NCBI RefSeq assembly: GCF_009901585.1
Contig: NZ_WXYO01000003.1
Location: 124,001-188,000 of the forward strand
Direction: 5' to 3'
From: Poritiphilus flavus
GTDB taxonomy: Bacteria > Bacteroidota > Bacteroidia > Flavobacteriales > Flavobacteriaceae
Length of the DNA: 64,000 nt
Below are positions 8,487 to 24,454 of this stretch, one piece after another; within the stretch, counting starts at the first letter, position 1, and each line of letters opens with the position of its first letter. Below the pieces are notes generated by a model. It was not told the origin of the DNA. It ran no database searches and saw only the letters and a list, made by a program, of their open reading frames with translations. A program made the position numbers and the translations under genes.

Positions 8487-9071
8487 ATGAGCCAAAACCT
8501 AGACCAACACTATATTGAGCGGGCTTTAAATGGGGATACCAGAGCCTATGCGGTGCTAATAGACAGATATAAGCATATGGTCTATACTATGGCCGCCCAG
8601 ATAGTCAAAAATAATGAGGATGCGGAAGAAGTTGCTCAGGATGTTTTTTTAAAAGCCTTCAAGGCCTTAAACAGCTATAAGGGGGACGCCAAGTTCTCTA
8701 CATGGCTATATAAAATTGCATATTATCGAAGCCTGGATTATCTGAAGAAAAAGCAAAGAAGAATAAGTACGACCACAATAGACGTTTCACGGGAATACAG
8801 TATTTCTGCTCTGGATAGTGAAATGGATGACATGGAAGTACAGGAAAGACAGCAAATGGTAAAAAAAGCCATACAACAACTTCCGGAAGATGACGGGGTT
8901 TTGATCACATTGCATTATTACGAAGAGCTATCGCTGAAAGAGATTTCAGAAATTATGGGAAACAGTCCCAACGCCTTAAAGGTAAGATTGCACCGGGCGA
9001 GGAAAAAACTGGCAGATTTGTTAAAAAGTACTGTAGAACCGGAAATTTTAAATAGTTATGGAGGAAAATAA
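8487..9071 (+). CDS. ECF (RpoE-like) RNA polymerase sigma factor
   Basis: The 194-residue protein has sigma region 2 at about residues 20-90 (DRYKHMVYTMAAQIVKN, EDAEEVAQDVFLKAFKALN, FSTWLYKIAYYRSLDYLKKK). Region 4 lies at about 130-182 (QLPEDDGVLITLHYYEELS, LKEISEIMGNSPNALKVRL). This is a standard extracytoplasmic-function sigma factor. The next gene overlaps it by 14 bases and encodes a two-helix membrane protein, the usual place of an anti-sigma partner. A nine-base inverted repeat lies just upstream. Confidence 0.95.
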   Translation: MSQNLDQHYIERALNGDTRAYAVLIDRYKHMVYTMAAQIVKNNEDAEEVAQDVFLKAFKALNSYKGDAKFSTWLYKIAYYRSLDYLKKKQRRISTTTIDVSREYSISALDSEMDDMEVQERQQMVKKAIQQLPEDDGVLITLHYYEELSLKEISEIMGNSPNALKVRLHRARKKLADLLKSTVEPEILNSYGGK

Positions 9072-17345: not shown

Positions 17346-17939
17346 ACTCAGTGAATTCCTGGGTTACAATGGACCCTAAGGTACGGGTAGGTCAATCCCC
17401 GGGCTTTCGTTAGGGAATAAAAATAAGAAATTAAACCAACAGAAAACATCCCTCAAACAGCTTTAAGGGTATAGACTAATTGATTCTGACATTGGATTTA
17501 ATGGCCAGCTTAGGGATTAAAATAATATACAGAAGATTCAAGCGCCACTTTTTTAAATGTTTTTAGTTTGATGTATAGAATCCCAGCTTGACTTGATTGT
17601 AAATCCACTTTGGCTAATTTCTAATCCTAACGAAGATTTTTTAGTCTTAATGATCGGCATATACTCTACTCATAATTCGGCCCTCCGGAAGCTTACCAAA
17701 GGTTAATTCCCATTACATTATTTGTAAAATTTTCACTTCTTCGTATATAACTTAGAGTGAATTGAAACCCTCATTTTAGCGGCTCCAAGGCGCACTTTGG
17801 TAAAAATTTCGTTGAAGGAATTTACGGAAGATTAAAAAAAATGTCACGTTTTAGGAATTCGGTGCTTATAGGGTAAAAGATGCGAATGTGAATCACAGAA
17901 TGAATTTCACTAGCAAACCAGATTTGTACCTTAGAATAC
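17346..17939. other. 594-base intergenic region
   Basis: AT-rich region between a divergent LuxR-type regulator and the sigma/protease locus. I see no convincing reading frame, RNA gene or repeat. It probably contains the promoters of both flanking units; only the one at 17940 is clear. Confidence 0.5.
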
Positions 17940-17947
17940 TAACTTTG
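17940..17947 (+). promoter_or_regulatory. -7 promoter element of the sigma/protease locus
   Basis: TAACTTTG fits TAnnTTTG. It would start transcription at about 17954, after the first in-frame ATG (17949), so translation should begin at the ATG at 17970. No good -33 TTG lies at the right distance; an activator or an ECF holoenzyme could be needed. Confidence 0.45.
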
Positions 17948-17969
17948 AATGCATTTGAAAACCCTATTC

Positions 17970-18518
17970 ATGGAGAATAAGAATTTTGGTCTTACAGAAG
18001 CATCTTTTGCGGAAATGATCAATGACCTTAAGGCAAACGATACCCGTTTTTTCCTTCAGGTATTTCTCAAACAGTTTGAGGAAACCATATTGTATGTAAA
18101 ACGCGAATGTGGAGCAAGTCATGAAGATGCCTATGATGCAACCATGGATACGCTTCTGGAGTTCCGGTTGCGATTTGTAAATGGAAAATTACGCTATGGG
18201 AATCTGAGATTTTTATTCACCAAAATGACCACTCAAATGTATCTGAGAAACAAAAAAAACAATCAACCCCTAACGAACGATATTACAGGGATTCCAGAGC
18301 GGGAAGAAGAACGTTCGGACGCTGCGGTCCCCGAAGGTTTTAGCCGGGCCTGGAATAGCCTGGGTAAAAACTGCAAAGAACTGCTTACACAGCACTATTA
18401 CGGAAAAATGAAGCTAATTGAAATTGCAAAAATCACTTCAAAAAACCCTACTGCGGTTCGTAAACAGAAAGAGCGTTGTGTTAAAAAATTAAAAGATCTA
18501 ATGGTTGAAATTATATAA
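17970..18518 (+). CDS. ECF-like RNA polymerase sigma factor
   Basis: The 182-residue protein is a divergent sigma-70 family member. Region 2 lies at about 30-90 (FEETILYVKRECGASHEDAY, LRFLFTKMTTQMYLRNKK) and region 4 at about 127-178 (AWNSLGKNCKELLTQHYYGK, LIEIAKITSKNPTAVRKQK). The region 2 match is weak but the order and spacing are right. The next gene starts one base after its stop and encodes a one-helix membrane protein in the place of an anti-sigma factor. A subtilisin-like and a CHAT protease gene follow. It may control its own locus. Confidence 0.85.
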   Translation: MENKNFGLTEASFAEMINDLKANDTRFFLQVFLKQFEETILYVKRECGASHEDAYDATMDTLLEFRLRFVNGKLRYGNLRFLFTKMTTQMYLRNKKNNQPLTNDITGIPEREEERSDAAVPEGFSRAWNSLGKNCKELLTQHYYGKMKLIEIAKITSKNPTAVRKQKERCVKKLKDLMVEII

Positions 18519-18519
18519 T

Positions 18520-19197
18520 ATGGACATTGACAAAAACCTACAGCGATTTATTGACGATAAAACCTCTGATGAGGAGGCCGATGCACTTCTGGAAGTGTGG
18601 ATAACTAAAACCAAAGATGCCGAATTACGCACAGAAGCCAGCTCAATCCTTCAAAAAGATTACGGCCTTGGCAGGAATCCTAAAAAAGGTGGCAAATTAA
18701 AATATTTAAGACCCTTGTTGGTCGCGGCAAGTTTGGCACTGCTGTTTTCGATGTTTTTTATCAATCGCGACGATTTCAGTGCAACAGAGCTTGCAGCCCA
18801 ATATGTGGATACTGAAAGTCTGACTCATCCGGGAAATTCCAAAGGAGTAACCGAATTGGATACGAACAGAACCCGGGCCATTGTTGCCTTTAACAATACT
18901 GATTTTAATTTAGCGATTGTCCACTTCAATCAAATTAAAACAACCAGTGAAGAAGACAAATACTATCTCGGATTGGCCTACATGAAAAGCGGACAGATTC
19001 AACAGGCCATTGATACATTCGAAGAGGTTGGTGAGAGGAATGACGTACGCTTCAGACAGGAAATAAACTGGTTTTTAGCTTTATCCCATCTCCTCAACGG
19101 AAATACACCAAAGGCCACAGAATCAATAAAGAACATTCAAAATGGGGATTGGAAATATGACGATGCCCAGAAATTACTTCACCATATTAATAAATGA
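18520..19197 (+). CDS. One-pass membrane TPR protein, putative anti-sigma factor
   Basis: The 225-residue product has a cytoplasmic N-terminus (1-60; FIDDKTSDEEADALLEVW resembles the start of FecR/anti-sigma proteins). One membrane helix follows at about 65-83 (LRPLLVAASLALLFSMFF). The periplasmic C-terminal part holds TPR-like repeats (about 125-220: AFNNTDFNLAIVHFNQI, YYLGLAYMKSGQIQQAIDTF, LALSHLLNGNTPKATESI). Start at the ATG one base after the sigma stop. The topology fits a sigma-binding membrane sensor whose outer domain could be bound or cut by the downstream proteases; this is inference. Confidence 0.65.
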   Translation: MDIDKNLQRFIDDKTSDEEADALLEVWITKTKDAELRTEASSILQKDYGLGRNPKKGGKLKYLRPLLVAASLALLFSMFFINRDDFSATELAAQYVDTESLTHPGNSKGVTELDTNRTRAIVAFNNTDFNLAIVHFNQIKTTSEEDKYYLGLAYMKSGQIQQAIDTFEEVGERNDVRFRQEINWFLALSHLLNGNTPKATESIKNIQNGDWKYDDAQKLLHHINK

Positions 19198-19229
19198 AAA
19201 TGATTATTTTGAACAATAAACCCATTGCT

Positions 19230-20567
19230 ATGAAACTGCTAAAACACCTAATCGTTTTTTTGATCCTGATATTTCTGGTTTCTTCCACGACCTCATGTAG
19301 CCCTGAAGAGGTAGAAGTTCCAGTAGAAGTGGAAGCTTCCAGGGTTTCGGATGATGCTAACGAGGATGACGATGAAGATGACGACGAAGATGATGACGAC
19401 GATGACGACGACGATGAAGATGAATTAATTAAACATCCTACGCTTTTTTTCGTAAGACTGGATCCCAGCATTTCAGAAGATGAAATCGAAGATTTGTTGA
19501 CTGACTTAAATTCTGTGGAAGTATGGTTCCGGGAAGAAATCAATTTGAGATTATGGAATACCAACGTTTTTCCCTATACCAGTATGGCTGGGGAGCAGAT
19601 AACTAATATAGACGGCCAAATCGCCAGAGCCAAAAAAAGAGCTAAACTTAACGATGTCGAATTTAATTTTGGGTCTGTCCTAAGGGATCCCACGTCCTCC
19701 CAGGACCTATTTTGTTTTGAAAGCTCCAGTGTTTTGGCTCCAGCAAGTGATGCCTCTGTGAAAATTGCCATTTTCGATTCTGGGATTGATGAGAATGCTC
19801 TTATGGGTATTGCCCCTAATCTTTTGGATGAATACTCCGGTTACGATTATGTAAACGATGATGAGGTTCCAGAGGATCAGAATGGTCATGGAACTCAGAT
19901 AACCAGCCTGATTTATCATCTGATCAATAAGGAGCAGGAAGCTCCGGATATCACATTTGATATACGTAAAACCCATGATGCCCAGGGAATAGGATATCTT
20001 TCGCATCTGATTCCGGCCATTCTCGATTCCGTAGACGAGGGAGCGAAGATCCTGAATTTCAGTTTTAGCTATCAGGATGAGAATACAGATACATCAAATC
20101 GCCCATTGAGACTGGCTATCGATTACGCAGCGCAAAATGGTGTTCTGATGGTTGCTTCAGCCGGTAACACTAACAAAAACAACGATGCGGATGATATTAT
20201 TTCTTTTCCTGCTTCCTATCCCAGTAACCATATCCTTTCAGTAGCATCCCTGAGCTGTGAAGACAAACTTAGCGGGTTTAGCAGTTACGGTCGGAACACT
20301 GTTGATGTTGCTTATTTGGGAGAACATATCCCAACCACAGGCTTAAATGGTGCCCAATTAGACAAATCAGGGACCTCCTATACCACCGCCTATGTTACGG
20401 CAATGGCTGCCATTATGGCCTCTCATAACGAGAACATTAGTGCAGCTGCGATTAAATGCTCTCTGATTGAAACTTCTGTTTATTCCGACGAGTTGAAAGA
20501 CCTGATCTTATCTCAGGGTATTATCAACTTTTCGTCTGCACTTGAGCAAATGGGATCCTGCCAGTAG
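19230..20567 (+). CDS. Subtilisin-like (S8) serine protease lipoprotein with poly-acidic linker
   Basis: From the ATG at 19230 the 445-residue protein has a lipoprotein signal with lipobox SSTTSC (C23). An almost pure Asp/Glu linker follows (about 45-65), then a propeptide-like region to about 165. The S8 domain has D183 (IAIFDSGID), H220 (NGHGTQ), oxyanion N313 (SAGN) and S383 (SGTSYTTAYV), so it should be active. A longer frame from 19194 overlaps the previous stop but would place 12 extra residues before the signal. It is expected to be periplasmic or on an outer leaflet. Substrates may be its genetic neighbours. Confidence 0.92.
   Translation: MKLLKHLIVFLILIFLVSSTTSCSPEEVEVPVEVEASRVSDDANEDDDEDDDEDDDDDDDDDEDELIKHPTLFFVRLDPSISEDEIEDLLTDLNSVEVWFREEINLRLWNTNVFPYTSMAGEQITNIDGQIARAKKRAKLNDVEFNFGSVLRDPTSSQDLFCFESSSVLAPASDASVKIAIFDSGIDENALMGIAPNLLDEYSGYDYVNDDEVPEDQNGHGTQITSLIYHLINKEQEAPDITFDIRKTHDAQGIGYLSHLIPAILDSVDEGAKILNFSFSYQDENTDTSNRPLRLAIDYAAQNGVLMVASAGNTNKNNDADDIISFPASYPSNHILSVASLSCEDKLSGFSSYGRNTVDVAYLGEHIPTTGLNGAQLDKSGTSYTTAYVTAMAAIMASHNENISAAAIKCSLIETSVYSDELKDLILSQGIINFSSALEQMGSCQ
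19362..19424 (+). repeat. GAN-trinucleotide microsatellite encoding an Asp/Glu tract
   Basis: About 21 consecutive GAT, GAC, GAA and GAG codons give an uninterrupted acidic run just after the lipobox. Slippage would change the length in frame. Confidence 0.85.
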
Positions 20568-20589
20568 TTGGTTGTAAGCAATAGTCTGT

Positions 20590-20632
20590 AAGTCTTTTCC
20601 TGTTATTAATCCCAATAGGAAAAGACTTCTTG
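20590..20632 (+). terminator. 12-bp perfect hairpin after the S8 protease gene
   Basis: AAGTCTTTTCCT pairs exactly with AGGAAAAGACTT around a 15-base loop. The T tract is short and broken (CTTGTATTT), so it may only attenuate transcription into the CHAT gene. Confidence 0.6.
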
Positions 20633-20649
20633 TATTTCGGTTCTAAAAG

Positions 20650-20668
20650 GTAGGTGGGTCGAACCTAC
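20650..20668. promoter_or_regulatory. Inverted repeat before the CHAT gene
   Basis: GTAGGT (20650-20655) and ACCTAC (20663-20668) flank seven bases, 30 bases before the start codon. Possible operator; no consensus promoter is seen between it and the gene. Confidence 0.35.
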
Positions 20669-20697
20669 ATTCATTATCTTAGCTTCAACCCTATGAA

Positions 20698-23616
20698 ATG
20701 AAAATAAGACCCCACCCTTTTCAGCTCTTGATCTGCATCACAAACAAAAAGGCGGTATTATTGCTATGCCTTTTTTTTGCTTCATTCACCGTCTTTAGCA
20801 ACGACTATTTTGAAGAACTCTATCAGCAACTTAATGCCAATATAGACGTAGAGAATTTCGAAGCGAACTTTCGCCTGATCGAGGAATGGGAAAAAGATAG
20901 CCAGTTTAAGCTATTGGACTGTTATGCCAAAGGCAGGATTTACCATAAAATAGGACTGTCGCATTACCTTGCTTATCAGGAAAAAAAAGCAGTCTATTAT
21001 TTTAAAGAGAAAGTACTTCCGCTATGGGAGGGTTGCAAGACCGTGCCAACCACTGAAAAGGCCAATACCGTCTACAATCTGGGGATCTGTTATCAGTATT
21101 TAGGAAATAATGAAGAGGCCAAAGTCTACCTGGATGAAGCTTTGGATATTTTTGAGAAAGATCCTCAATACCCTGCCTATCAATTGGCGCTGAAATACCA
21201 TGGTATTGCTTTGTTTTATGAAGAAAACAGTGATTATTTCAGGTCACAGCTTTATCTTTCAAGCGCTATAGATCTGTTCGAAAAAGAAAACGCGGTCCTT
21301 GAACAATTCGATGCCCTGAACGATGCGGTTACCCTTCAAATGGATTTTAAGGACTATGATCAGGCATCGGACTATGCGGATAAAGCCTTTGCTCTTGCCC
21401 AAACCCACAGTGGAGAAATCCCTTTTCAGGACCTGGCTCCGGTCTATCTAAACGCCGCGACCATTTATTATGAGCAGGAAAAATTCGAAGCTTCTCGTGA
21501 ACGCGCTGAAAAGGCATTACAGATTATGGATAAGGAAGGGACCCCCCAGTTCCATGCCATAGGGCTGGAAATCCTGGCATTCCTGCACATGGAGAAAGGG
21601 CAGTTTAAGGCCGCAGAGGAATTAATGCATAGGGTCTTGTACAAAAGGAAGCAGTTTTACAAAGAAGATGGTGGATTAAGCCTTATGGCGTTGACCCATG
21701 AAAACTTTGCCGAGCTATACCTCCGTAAGGGCGACCTGTATAAGGCCAACGAACAACTTAAAAAGGGTTTTGCTATTGCTATGCCCGGAGCCAGCTTAGA
21801 TAAATATGAAACACCCATTATAAAAAACTTCAGTACAATTGACGAAAGGGCACTGATACGCCTGTTGGAGTTAAAAACCCGAATATTTGAAAAAAGATTT
21901 GAGCAGTCAGGTGATTTTATCTACATGCAACGTTCGCTTAATGTACAGCACAAGATTGATTCCGTTATCAATCGAGGACTTCTTTCCTTTCAGTTTGAAC
22001 AATCAAAGCTAGATTTTCTGAATACCCGATTTGAGCATTACGGAAAAGGCCTGCAGAACGCCTTGCAATTGTACGACATCACTAATGACCAATTTTATTT
22101 AGAGGAAGCCTTCAAATTCTCTACAAAAACCAAAGCCTCCATTCTGCAACAAGAACTCAATCGTGTAAATGCGCTCAGATCTACAGTTTCAAATGATGTC
22201 TTGGTTAGAGAACAGGAATTGCGACAACGAATGAACGAACAGCAAGACTTACTTCTGGAGGCATCTGATGAACTTAGAGATTCCCTGTCCCAGACCTTTA
22301 TAAAGTCTCAGAATGCTTTGGAAGCCTTTCAGGTAGAAATTGAAAAAAACGAACCACAATACTTTCAAGAACGATACAAATTCTTAAAAGCACCAGTTGT
22401 TAAAGTACTTCAGGAAGAACTTCCTGAAGACATGGCCATGGTTGAATTCTTTGTGGCACAGGATACGGTTCATGCCTTCTGGATTGGAGGGGAAGCTTTT
22501 CTGAATACAGCCGCCCATTTGGATGATCAGCTAAAAGGAAGCATTGCACGTTTTACCGAACAATGCCGTAACCCCGAATTAACCATTTCAACAAAAGACT
22601 CGCAGTACATTTATGACAAGCTGCTAAAGGAAGGAGTCAACCAGCTGAAAAGTGTAGAACGCCTTTGCATTATCCCCGATGGGGTCCTTCATACCGTATC
22701 ATTTGAGGCTTTAAATGATGGTCAGGACTACCTTATCCGGAGATTTGCTTTTTCCTATGCCTATGCACCGGCATTAATAAGTAAGGATCCCGAAGATTCT
22801 TACGAGCCCTCTTATGATTACCTTGGCTTTGGCACTACATATAGCGATCAATTGAACCCCTTACTACGCTCAAAAAAAAGGTTTTTTGGAAAGGAAACCC
22901 TGTCAAAGCTAACCCTTGCGGGAAAGGAAGTGGAGCAAGCCGCTCAAATTTTCAAGGGTAAAACTTTTCAAGATCAGAAAGCAACACTTGAGAATTTTTA
23001 TACGCACGCGGAAGAGGCGCGTATCATCCATCTTTCTCTTCATGGATTGGTGGATGTAGACGACCCCAATCGTTCATGTGTCATCTTTGACGATTCTCAT
23101 CAGAACTTCCTGCTTTCCCCTACAGGTCTTTATAAAATGCGCATCACCGCAGACCTGGTATTGCTAAGTGCCTGCCATTCGGCTAGTGGAAGAATCTACA
23201 AGGGTGAGGGTGTTCAGGGAATGAGCAAGGCTTTTTTACTAGCCGGAGCACAAAATGTGCTTTCCAGTCTTTGGAATGCAAGTGAGGCAAGTTCTATGGA
23301 GATGACCCAAAATCTATTGAAAAACATTGATAAAGGGCTTCCTTTTGACAACGCCTTACGCGAGTCCAAACTAAAATACCTACAGCAGGCGCCTCCTAGC
23401 CAACAGCACCCTTACTATTGGGCCAATTTTATTCTTCTCGGTCAGGTGGATCAGGCCTTAAAATCTGAATCCTTCCCAGTTCCACTTTTGATGTTGGTTA
23501 GTGTGGTGGTCATCCTTATTGTTGTGTTTTTCTCTAGAAAATTTTTGAAGGGGTTTTCACTTTCCCCACCAGGCACCGCTCTATTGCCTGAAAACAAAAA
23601 AAGCTCCCTTAAATAG
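20698..23616 (+). CDS. TPR-CHAT (caspase-like) protease, predicted periplasmic and membrane-anchored
   Basis: The 972-residue protein has a signal peptide (about 18-34), TPR repeats (about 80-480; for example NLGICYQYLGNNEEAKVYL), and a helical linker (500-560). The C-terminal CHAT peptidase domain (about 570-915) carries H782 (HLSLHG) and C826 (LLSACHSASG), the caspase-like dyad, plus an LCIIPDGVLHTVSFEAL segment. A membrane helix at 928-946 followed by basic residues suggests a C-terminal anchor with the catalytic domain in the periplasm. CHAT proteases fused to TPRs cut partners in response to signals. It follows a sigma factor, membrane TPR protein and S8 protease, suggesting a proteolytic signalling cascade. 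Confidence 0.9.
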   Translation: MKIRPHPFQLLICITNKKAVLLLCLFFASFTVFSNDYFEELYQQLNANIDVENFEANFRLIEEWEKDSQFKLLDCYAKGRIYHKIGLSHYLAYQEKKAVYYFKEKVLPLWEGCKTVPTTEKANTVYNLGICYQYLGNNEEAKVYLDEALDIFEKDPQYPAYQLALKYHGIALFYEENSDYFRSQLYLSSAIDLFEKENAVLEQFDALNDAVTLQMDFKDYDQASDYADKAFALAQTHSGEIPFQDLAPVYLNAATIYYEQEKFEASRERAEKALQIMDKEGTPQFHAIGLEILAFLHMEKGQFKAAEELMHRVLYKRKQFYKEDGGLSLMALTHENFAELYLRKGDLYKANEQLKKGFAIAMPGASLDKYETPIIKNFSTIDERALIRLLELKTRIFEKRFEQSGDFIYMQRSLNVQHKIDSVINRGLLSFQFEQSKLDFLNTRFEHYGKGLQNALQLYDITNDQFYLEEAFKFSTKTKASILQQELNRVNALRSTVSNDVLVREQELRQRMNEQQDLLLEASDELRDSLSQTFIKSQNALEAFQVEIEKNEPQYFQERYKFLKAPVVKVLQEELPEDMAMVEFFVAQDTVHAFWIGGEAFLNTAAHLDDQLKGSIARFTEQCRNPELTISTKDSQYIYDKLLKEGVNQLKSVERLCIIPDGVLHTVSFEALNDGQDYLIRRFAFSYAYAPALISKDPEDSYEPSYDYLGFGTTYSDQLNPLLRSKKRFFGKETLSKLTLAGKEVEQAAQIFKGKTFQDQKATLENFYTHAEEARIIHLSLHGLVDVDDPNRSCVIFDDSHQNFLLSPTGLYKMRITADLVLLSACHSASGRIYKGEGVQGMSKAFLLAGAQNVLSSLWNASEASSMEMTQNLLKNIDKGLPFDNALRESKLKYLQQAPPSQQHPYYWANFILLGQVDQALKSESFPVPLLMLVSVVVILIVVFFSRKFLKGFSLSPPGTALLPENKKSSLK

Positions 23617-23686: not shown

Positions 23687-24454
23687 ATGAGAACCCTAAA
23701 GTGTGCATTACCCGTATTAATTTTCTTATTGTTTTCATTCCACTCAGAAATTGTTGCTCAGGACGGAGTAAAATTTTGGGCCGGGCACTCGTTGGGAACT
23801 AAGCTAACTGAGCAGTGGCGTATAAGAGTCGGACAGCTTTACCTTTTCGATGAGGTCATGGACCTGAGCTCCTTGCAGAACAGTGCCAGAATTGAATACC
23901 GGTTTAATAGCAAATTCAGGATCGGGCTGGGTTATGTACGCTCTTCAGACCCCTCAGACCCGGACCAGGAGGCTCGTAACCGTTTAGACCCCAGAATACG
24001 ATATAATTTCAGGCTCGGGAAGCTGAGAGTTGCAAATACTTTGCGGACGGAGTGGCATTTCCCCGAACGAAGCAAGTTTGAATATCGCATTCGTTATGCC
24101 CTTCGTTTGCATCGTGGAGATTGGGGATTACCCCTTAATATGACTCCATACATTACCAATGAACTCCATTATTACCTGGACGGGAGACCCTTTCAATACA
24201 GGGACCCTCAGGGAGAGGCAGTTGTGAAACAATCTCCCGACGGACTACATGCTCACCGAATTATGCTGGGTCTGCGTTTTAAACCGTTCAAGCGCGCAAA
24301 TGCCAGCATTTATTTTATGAGACAGACGGAATTCAATCTGGGAAACAAATATAGAAGGATCAACGTCACTGACCCCAGGAACGGTGAAGTGAAAAGGGAT
24401 TTCAACAATTTCTCGGTTCTGGCCTTCAATTTTTCTTATCGCTTGAAAATATAG
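23687..24454 (+). CDS. DUF2490 outer-membrane beta-barrel protein
   Basis: The 255-residue protein has a signal peptide (1-24, ending EIVAQ) and alternating amphipathic strands throughout, ending in an aromatic-hydrophobic strand (FSVLAFNFSYRLKI) as in outer-membrane barrels. The pattern, including WHFPERSKFEYRIRY, matches DUF2490. Function unknown. It lies 70 bases after the CHAT gene with no terminator between, so it may belong to the same transcript. Confidence 0.75.
   Translation: MRTLKCALPVLIFLLFSFHSEIVAQDGVKFWAGHSLGTKLTEQWRIRVGQLYLFDEVMDLSSLQNSARIEYRFNSKFRIGLGYVRSSDPSDPDQEARNRLDPRIRYNFRLGKLRVANTLRTEWHFPERSKFEYRIRYALRLHRGDWGLPLNMTPYITNELHYYLDGRPFQYRDPQGEAVVKQSPDGLHAHRIMLGLRFKPFKRANASIYFMRQTEFNLGNKYRRINVTDPRNGEVKRDFNNFSVLAFNFSYRLKI

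Follow-up and report, generated by a model that had tools for sequence, protein, structure and literature searches.

The 64,000-nt stretch of DNA analysed here (hereafter the window; Poritiphilus flavus, contig NZ_WXYO01000003.1, positions 124,001 to 188,000) contains four adjacent intact open reading frames on the + strand, at 17949–23616. They encode an extracytoplasmic function (ECF)-type sigma factor, a one-pass membrane protein with tetratricopeptide repeats (TPRs), a subtilisin-type (S8) lipoprotein and a TPR-CHAT protease, in agreement with a preliminary description of the locus. The association of the sigma factor, the membrane protein as its anti-sigma candidate and CHAT is real and is conserved in many marine Bacteroidota, and the window locus, as judged by profile comparison, is a divergent copy of this gene set whose resemblance to it is above chance. 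We propose that the set forms an envelope signalling cassette in which CHAT acts on the anti-sigma factor to free the sigma factor, a model that we hold with belief and doubt in equal measure. The results computed here are the gene association, its co-variation, the predicted topology, the conserved catalytic residues, the linkage of a TPR half to CHAT and a promoter motif in relatives.

CHAT genes are present in 88 of 199 sampled genomes of the family and in 101 of 198 genomes of the phylum. We compared 120 CHAT neighbourhoods. Of these, 100 were family loci picked by hand among the matches listed, with several frequently taken from a single genome; the other 20 came from a draw across the phylum, and two of them (G301 and G305) belong to the same family. 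The mapped set of 120 CHAT loci includes the window and omits L177, in which CHAT was not called. An ECF sigma gene lies within five genes of CHAT in 85/100 family loci and in 94/120 mapped loci. Sigma and CHAT genes are convergent in 33 mapped loci, divergent in 34, co-directional in 26 (including the window) and otherwise arranged in one; in the remaining 26, no sigma gene was called nearby. The preliminary description had proposed the four-gene order as the unit to look for among relatives. It had named rare co-occurrence of the genes as grounds for refuting its idea; for sigma, TPR protein and CHAT the result favours the idea, as these do co-occur. The exact order of sigma, TPR protein, S8 and CHAT in line is found in only 2/120 mapped loci, the window and L091, and other arrangements are much commoner.

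A separate scan of the best 79 of 525 relatives, with named records from Aquimarina, Kordia, Tenacibaculum, Pseudozobellia and Saprospiraceae among others and a few genomes repeated from the first set, places sigma near CHAT in 49/79 loci, and in 42/53 among loci of at least 20 kb. In the reciprocal direction, 79 of the 107 non-self places found with the window sigma are within 10 kb of a CHAT gene among the matches listed, for which the chance expectation is roughly estimated at ~1%. When the window's own row was left out of the profiles (E values at a database size of 4000; the underlying alignments had included the window, and the window sigma was one of several seeds for the sigma set), the window sigma matches the CHAT-linked sigmas at 77 bits (E 2.8e-22), the anti-sigma candidate matches its CHAT-linked family at 106 bits (E 5.4e-31) and CHAT matches its own at E 9.9e-162, each over most of its length.

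The membrane protein differs between sigma factors with and without a CHAT neighbour. Twenty of the 28 CHAT-unlinked sigma relatives were fetched as a control. The partners of 13 match the N-terminal and membrane part of the anti-sigma candidate only. Another five show a poor match or none, and some of these may therefore not be anti-sigma genes; of the remaining two, one (L264) matches in full at a contig end and the other (L274) matches weakly. The TPR half is present in 92/92 CHAT-linked loci versus 2/20 unlinked ones, a contrast that is somewhat flattered because the 92 linked partners had been pre-selected at 191–299 aa. The TPR half of the anti-sigma candidate goes with CHAT linkage. In five CHAT-unlinked paralogues (L263, L267, L273, L277, and L279), the partner fuses the same N-terminus to a large C-terminal part (606–969 aa in total).

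The three proteins also co-vary. Across 92 loci, the distance matrices correlate at 0.85 for sigma and anti-sigma, 0.74 for sigma and CHAT, and 0.76 for anti-sigma and CHAT, and none of 2000 permutations reached such values. In addition, the native sigma–CHAT pairing correlates better than the swapped pairing in 28/28 pairs of loci from the same genome. Since native and swapped pairs come from the same genome, species history is controlled for.

The window sigma gene (17949–18518, +, 189 aa; a second in-frame Met, residue 8, is at 17970) matches TIGR02937 over residues 39–183 at 36.5 bits, below the curated cut-off of 42.9, and Sigma70_r4_2 weakly (E 0.008). The membrane protein (18520–19197, +, 225 aa) is encoded directly 3' of it; the likeliest start, the ATG at 18520, is one base past the sigma stop. 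It is composed of a three-helix N-terminal domain, one transmembrane helix (residues 66–81, ~18715–18762) and TPRs at residues 115–224 (TPR_2, 29 bits). The helix is preceded by a K/R-rich flank and followed by an acidic one, and hydropathy and these flanking charges predict that the N-terminal domain is inside the cell and the TPR part is periplasmic. The AlphaFold model has a mean predicted local distance difference test (pLDDT) score of 82, mostly >90 in the TPR part. A Foldseek search with this model returned no match at E 0.001 or better, and its first 50 rows, mostly TPR or other repeat or helical proteins, include no anti-sigma factor. By its layout and position, the membrane TPR protein is likely the membrane-bound brake (anti-sigma factor) of the adjoining sigma. 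The preliminary description had likewise assigned it to the anti-sigma position, which is supported by the layout of an anti-sigma factor, the conservation of the set and the co-variation.

The CHAT gene (20698–23616, +, 972 aa; PF12770, 170 bits) is the single gene matched by a PF12770 search of the 5.0-Mb genome of the window. Its product comprises a signal-like N-terminus, a TPR superhelix, the CHAT domain (residues 635–916) and a C-terminal transmembrane helix (residues 928–952). The hydropathy is 2.06 at the N-terminus and 3.29 at the C-terminus, and the AlphaFold model (mean pLDDT 84) places a helix at residues 928–952. Hydropathy and model together predict that CHAT is exported and anchored by its C-terminal helix. 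By hydropathy, a C-terminal membrane helix is present in 88/94 sigma-linked CHATs versus 12/26 others. The His/Cys pair, correctly located at H782/C826 by the preliminary description, is kept in 120/120 CHATs compared and in 94/94 sigma-linked ones. In two loci without a sigma called nearby (L158 and L159), a ~1060-aa CHAT adjoins a ~657-aa signal-peptide protein that looks caspase-like by eye.

The fold matches of the CHAT model are the TPR-CHAT protease Csx29 of Craspase first, then separase, and also DdvA (PDB 8rot and 8rw5, which we take, by name, to be the DdvA discussed below). DdvA is matched by Foldseek at E 3e-14 with a TM-score of 0.25, and by VIA at Z 22.4 with a root-mean-square deviation of 13.2 over 600 residues, indicating a loose superposition of the TPR superhelix. 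When the catalytic part of CHAT alone was used as a profile, it matched DdvA at E 1.9e-6, with the His and the Cys aligned.

The S8 lipoprotein (19194–20567, +, 457 aa; PF00082, 103 bits) has a candidate lipobox at Cys35, followed by an acidic linker, an N-terminal domain and a catalytic domain with D195, H232, N325, and S395. The D183/H220/S383 numbering of the preliminary description is correct for a start at the internal ATG 19230 (445 aa) and becomes D195/H232/S395 from 19194. The triad and the oxyanion Asn are kept in 16/16 module S8s, the window included. Against a profile of module S8s made without it, the window S8 scores 151 bits over residues 13–444, versus 97.5 bits for the best non-module S8 in the studied loci. 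S8 genes are present in 191/199 family genomes, with 1 to 11 in each. S8 directly adjoins CHAT in 15/100 family loci, and also in the window, a frequency that we estimate, rather than simulate, to be far above chance. In the separate scan of 79 relatives, S8 is directly upstream in nine loci and an S8-like N-terminal domain stands alone in five. Because it is optional across loci, S8 as the core of the system was rejected.

Where sigma and CHAT are convergent or divergent, the slot immediately before CHAT on its own strand is filled by a lipoprotein-like gene in 42/60 loci by a simple rule of Cys plus hydropathy, and in ten divergent loci without S8 a small lipoprotein occupies this slot. The module S8s have a common N-terminal domain of ~75 residues ahead of the catalytic domain. 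A profile of this domain matches two of the ten slot lipoproteins (L087, E 4.8e-4; L090, E 4.8e-3); the full-length module S8 profile matches five (L087, L108, L090, L106, and L112), in matches that include the signal peptide; and profile comparison of the domain with 25 such lipoproteins gives a 95% probability. The N-terminal domain of the window S8 is unmatched by the domain profile built without it, and the full-length profile alone matches. No convincing Pfam model was found for the domain, the best being the Fervidolysin prodomain in one relative (E 0.013, below cut-off).

In a tree built from the last 420 residues of CHAT, all 15 S8-linked CHATs except that of the window form one clade with exactly the ten small-lipoprotein loci (100/100 support). 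A single association with S8, followed by loss of the catalytic domain, is the simplest reading of this tree. In another subtype (L145, L128, and 11 similar divergent loci), a ~650-aa protein is encoded upstream of CHAT and a ~330-aa lipoprotein before it. In L145, the one that was scanned, the ~650-aa protein is PKD/DUF7849 and a retropepsin-like aspartyl protease, a further protease tied to the same sigma set, is encoded just downstream of CHAT.

An ECF-type promoter motif, GG[T/G]TAACA, is found upstream of the operon divergent from sigma in 23/34 divergent loci (the discovery set). In convergent loci, it is upstream of sigma in 13/33, before CHAT in 0/33 and before the gene preceding CHAT in 1/28. 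Because discovery had used the divergent and convergent sequences themselves, the motif was tested on other loci. It is present in 14/35 held-out loci compared with 29/1066 other genes (p 2.6e-12); two loci were skipped as already seen, and many of the loci are from the same family, so the test is not wholly independent. Some convergent loci, L062 among them, have two inverted copies of the motif ahead of sigma, and the gene divergent from sigma carries the motif in 6/29; this gene may be a further target.

In the model that we favour, the anti-sigma factor, a one-pass protein of the inner membrane, would keep the ECF-type sigma inactive through its N-terminal domain, and the short TPR part of the same protein would be periplasmic. 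The exported and C-terminally anchored TPR-CHAT would present its separase-like protease domain against the periplasmic face of the same membrane. The lipoprotein encoded before CHAT (here S8; in some relatives the S8-like N-terminal domain) may serve as an accessory sensor, trigger or processed partner. Once activated, CHAT would act on the periplasmic side of the anti-sigma factor. The likeliest action is site-1 cleavage of the segment that joins the membrane helix to the TPR part, after which the general site-2 protease pathway would free sigma. Two M50 protease matches in the genome of the window could supply the site-2 step. In many relatives, the freed sigma would turn on the lipoprotein–CHAT operon or itself. 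We infer the contacts between these proteins, the cut, its position and the signal, as well as any autoregulation in the window's genome. Our preference for CHAT as the gate has four grounds: no other protease of the set is constant, its topology matches that of the anti-sigma candidate, its catalytic pair is kept in 94/94 sigma-linked copies, and there are precedents for its coupling to anti-sigma factors. The strongest hint that the two separate proteins work together is that DdvA joins an anti-sigma factor and CHAT in one protein.

Several observations weigh against this model. No sigma is called near CHAT in 26/120 mapped loci, at least one of which (L082) is a miss of the gene caller, a separate search having found sigma beside CHAT. 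The structural model did not confirm that the membrane protein has an anti-sigma fold at its N-terminus. The stretch past its membrane helix is kept within subtypes, with little in common across them, and the window copy is divergent; the idea of a universal cleavage motif was dropped, as conservation is at the subtype level only. An N-terminal export signal exceeds the hydropathy threshold in only 63/94 sigma-linked CHATs, and in 84/94 at a laxer threshold. The window CHAT is a long branch in no well-supported clade, so the link to S8 in the window could be old or independent. DdvA itself contains a His/Cys-bearing CHAT, which shows that a separate anti-sigma factor is not a necessary target for a domain of this kind. 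The promoter motif is missing from 21/35 held-out loci, and among co-directional loci it precedes sigma in 1/26, that one, L091, being convergent-type by sequence. In the window, the sole copy (at 17871) carries one mismatch and is at chance level, and promoter autoregulation was therefore dropped for the window.

The alternative that survives best is that CHAT and the lipoprotein are merely outputs. The anti-sigma factor would sense envelope stress by its own TPR part and be cut by general proteases, and sigma would make CHAT and S8 as quality-control or toxic effectors that never touch it. The motif aimed at the CHAT operon in divergent loci agrees with this, as does the variety of adjoining lipoproteins and proteases, which would be expected of effectors. 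However, in convergent loci the motif precedes sigma rather than CHAT or the gene before it, the presence of the TPR half tracks linkage to CHAT, paralogues within one genome still show strong co-variation, and DdvA unites both functions in one protein. We consider this alternative possible but doubtful.

A more specific form of the favoured model can be put forward tentatively, with much more doubt than confidence. An ECF sigma switch would have, as its dedicated site-1 protease, a periplasmic enzyme of the separase/caspase fold. The trigger of this enzyme would be a surface or periplasmic lipoprotein whose ancestor was a subtilisin's N-terminal domain; some members of the family would have lost the catalytic domain and kept the prodomain-like piece as a signal protein. 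On this reading, the prodomain of one protease would now provide the input to another.

CHAT could instead be a non-proteolytic sensor or scaffold, its TPR superhelix docking on the TPR part of the anti-sigma factor and controlling it by conformation, as a split version of DdvA. Both partners carry TPRs, DdvA is an anti-sigma factor (PMC4374960), and the solved structure of that name has a CHAT domain. Conservation of the His/Cys pair in all sigma-linked CHATs suggests catalysis instead, and DdvA keeps the pair too, which makes this alternative unlikely.

The preliminary description had read the locus as a protease-gated sigma switch. CHAT remains as the likelier gate, since S8 is optional. 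As one form of that switch, S8 would be the site-1 protease and CHAT secondary, in keeping with the triad intact in all module S8s and with an S8 that is adjacent and predicted to be exported. CHAT and the anti-sigma candidate remain where S8 is not directly beside CHAT, as in all but 15 of the 100 family loci, and ten loci inside the S8 clade have a small lipoprotein instead, five of these with a recognisable S8-like N-terminal domain. S8 is dispensable, and we regard it as a very unlikely gate.

The preliminary description also considered a defence circuit. In PADLOC, S8 matches the subtilase (E 6.2e-12) and IetS (E 1.7e-9 and weaker) models, both of S8 proteases; no search was aimed at an IetA partner. 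There is a single weak match for sigma and another for CHAT, the latter to a TPR, and the membrane TPR protein has none. A phage-defence or abortive-infection cassette analogous to Craspase is least probable of all, a bare outside chance, since, for all the similarity of the CHAT fold to Csx29, which cleaves the anti-sigma-like Csx30 (PMC10028731), and the IetS matches, these matches span only the protease part of S8, the three non-sigma proteins are predicted to be exported and similar arrangements recur across genera of the family; the matches give no specific support, and this reading was dropped, with no search aimed at CRISPR made.

The gene set points to a way in which a signal at the envelope might activate transcription. 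Should CHAT indeed cleave the anti-sigma factor, caspase-fold proteases would have a mainstream role in envelope signalling; Craspase, DdvA, and ECF54 would be linked as forms of one theme; and the cassette would be a simple system for testing what activates CHAT proteases.

In the window, the sigma, membrane TPR and S8 genes are tightly packed, and CHAT begins 130 nt downstream of S8. The gap contains a 15-bp hairpin (20590–20628, +), a candidate terminator or attenuator by RNA folding; the fold of 20565–20700 is at −35.5 kcal/mol (z −3.6 versus shuffles), and no clear T-run was seen 3' of the hairpin. CHAT therefore need not share the S8 transcript. Generic promoter and terminator scans of the window are at the level of shuffles. 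The DUF2490 gene at 23687 was dropped as a part of the cassette, as CHAT in L091, which shares the window's gene order, is followed by genes that differ in size and are on the opposite strand (these genes were unscanned). A second ECF-type sigma relative is encoded at 8532–9026 (+), followed by a 137-aa gene; it is not within 10 kb of CHAT.

We found no description of this Bacteroidota cassette in the open-access literature searched, a search that did not cover the principal paper on ECF classification. The preliminary description had claimed a different set of parts, but the difference is incomplete: DdvA, Craspase with its Csx29, the subtilase and CHAT neighbours of ECF54 (PMC8999054) and caspase–ECF sigma–TPR neighbourhoods (PMC8195603) are already known and overlap with it, as far as the available parts of these sources go.

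In Myxococcus xanthus, the ECF sigma DdvS has DdvA as its anti-sigma factor (PMC4374960). The DdvS–DdvA pair and the cassette have in common an ECF sigma, a transmembrane anti-sigma factor and a TPR-CHAT fold with the CHAT His and Cys aligned. In DdvA, the TPR-CHAT part is within the anti-sigma polypeptide, whereas the window has separate genes (18520–19197 and 20698–23616), a C-terminally anchored CHAT and an anti-sigma candidate with a short TPR part of its own.

Csx29 is the top fold match of the window CHAT. We take Craspase, unlike the cassette, to be cytoplasmic. Against the Csx29-type model NF041237, the window CHAT scores 25.6 bits, below the curated cut-off of 300. The type III-E system (Cas7-11, Csx29, Csx30, and CASP-sigma) resembles the cassette in its TPR-CHAT protease and ECF-type sigma; its inhibitor is cut by the protease, Csx29 cutting Csx30 and freeing a sigma (PMC10028731, PMC11106740). 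Unlike the cassette, Craspase is RNA-guided, and the available parts of both sources describe no lipoprotein or S8 with it. Craspases cut Csx30 at a non-conserved site whose choice seems to depend on structural positioning (PMC11106740), and the absence of a common cut motif in the window family is consistent with this.

For ECF54, carboxypeptidase, subtilase and CHAT genes are reported as conserved neighbours, and proteolytic control has been proposed (PMC8999054). The available part of that source describes ECF54, with an example in Geodermatophilus, as having no anti-sigma factor; here, in contrast, the membrane anti-sigma candidate is constant, being the next gene in the window, whereas S8 is optional. 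Another reported arrangement is the caspase-EACC2 neighbourhood, which includes an ECF sigma and a TPR (DUF1822) protein (PMC8195603, in the part available); the cassette likewise combines a caspase-fold protein with neighbours of these two kinds. Those neighbourhoods are defined by the EACC2 domain, whereas the family scan of the window proteins gave no EACC2 or DUF1822 match.

Regulated intramembrane proteolysis of the RseA/DegS/RseP type likewise involves a one-pass anti-sigma factor with a periplasmic half and envelope proteases, of which DegS is treated in PMC8103513. The cassette differs in its dedicated protease, which is encoded alongside and has a separase/caspase fold rather than that of HtrA.

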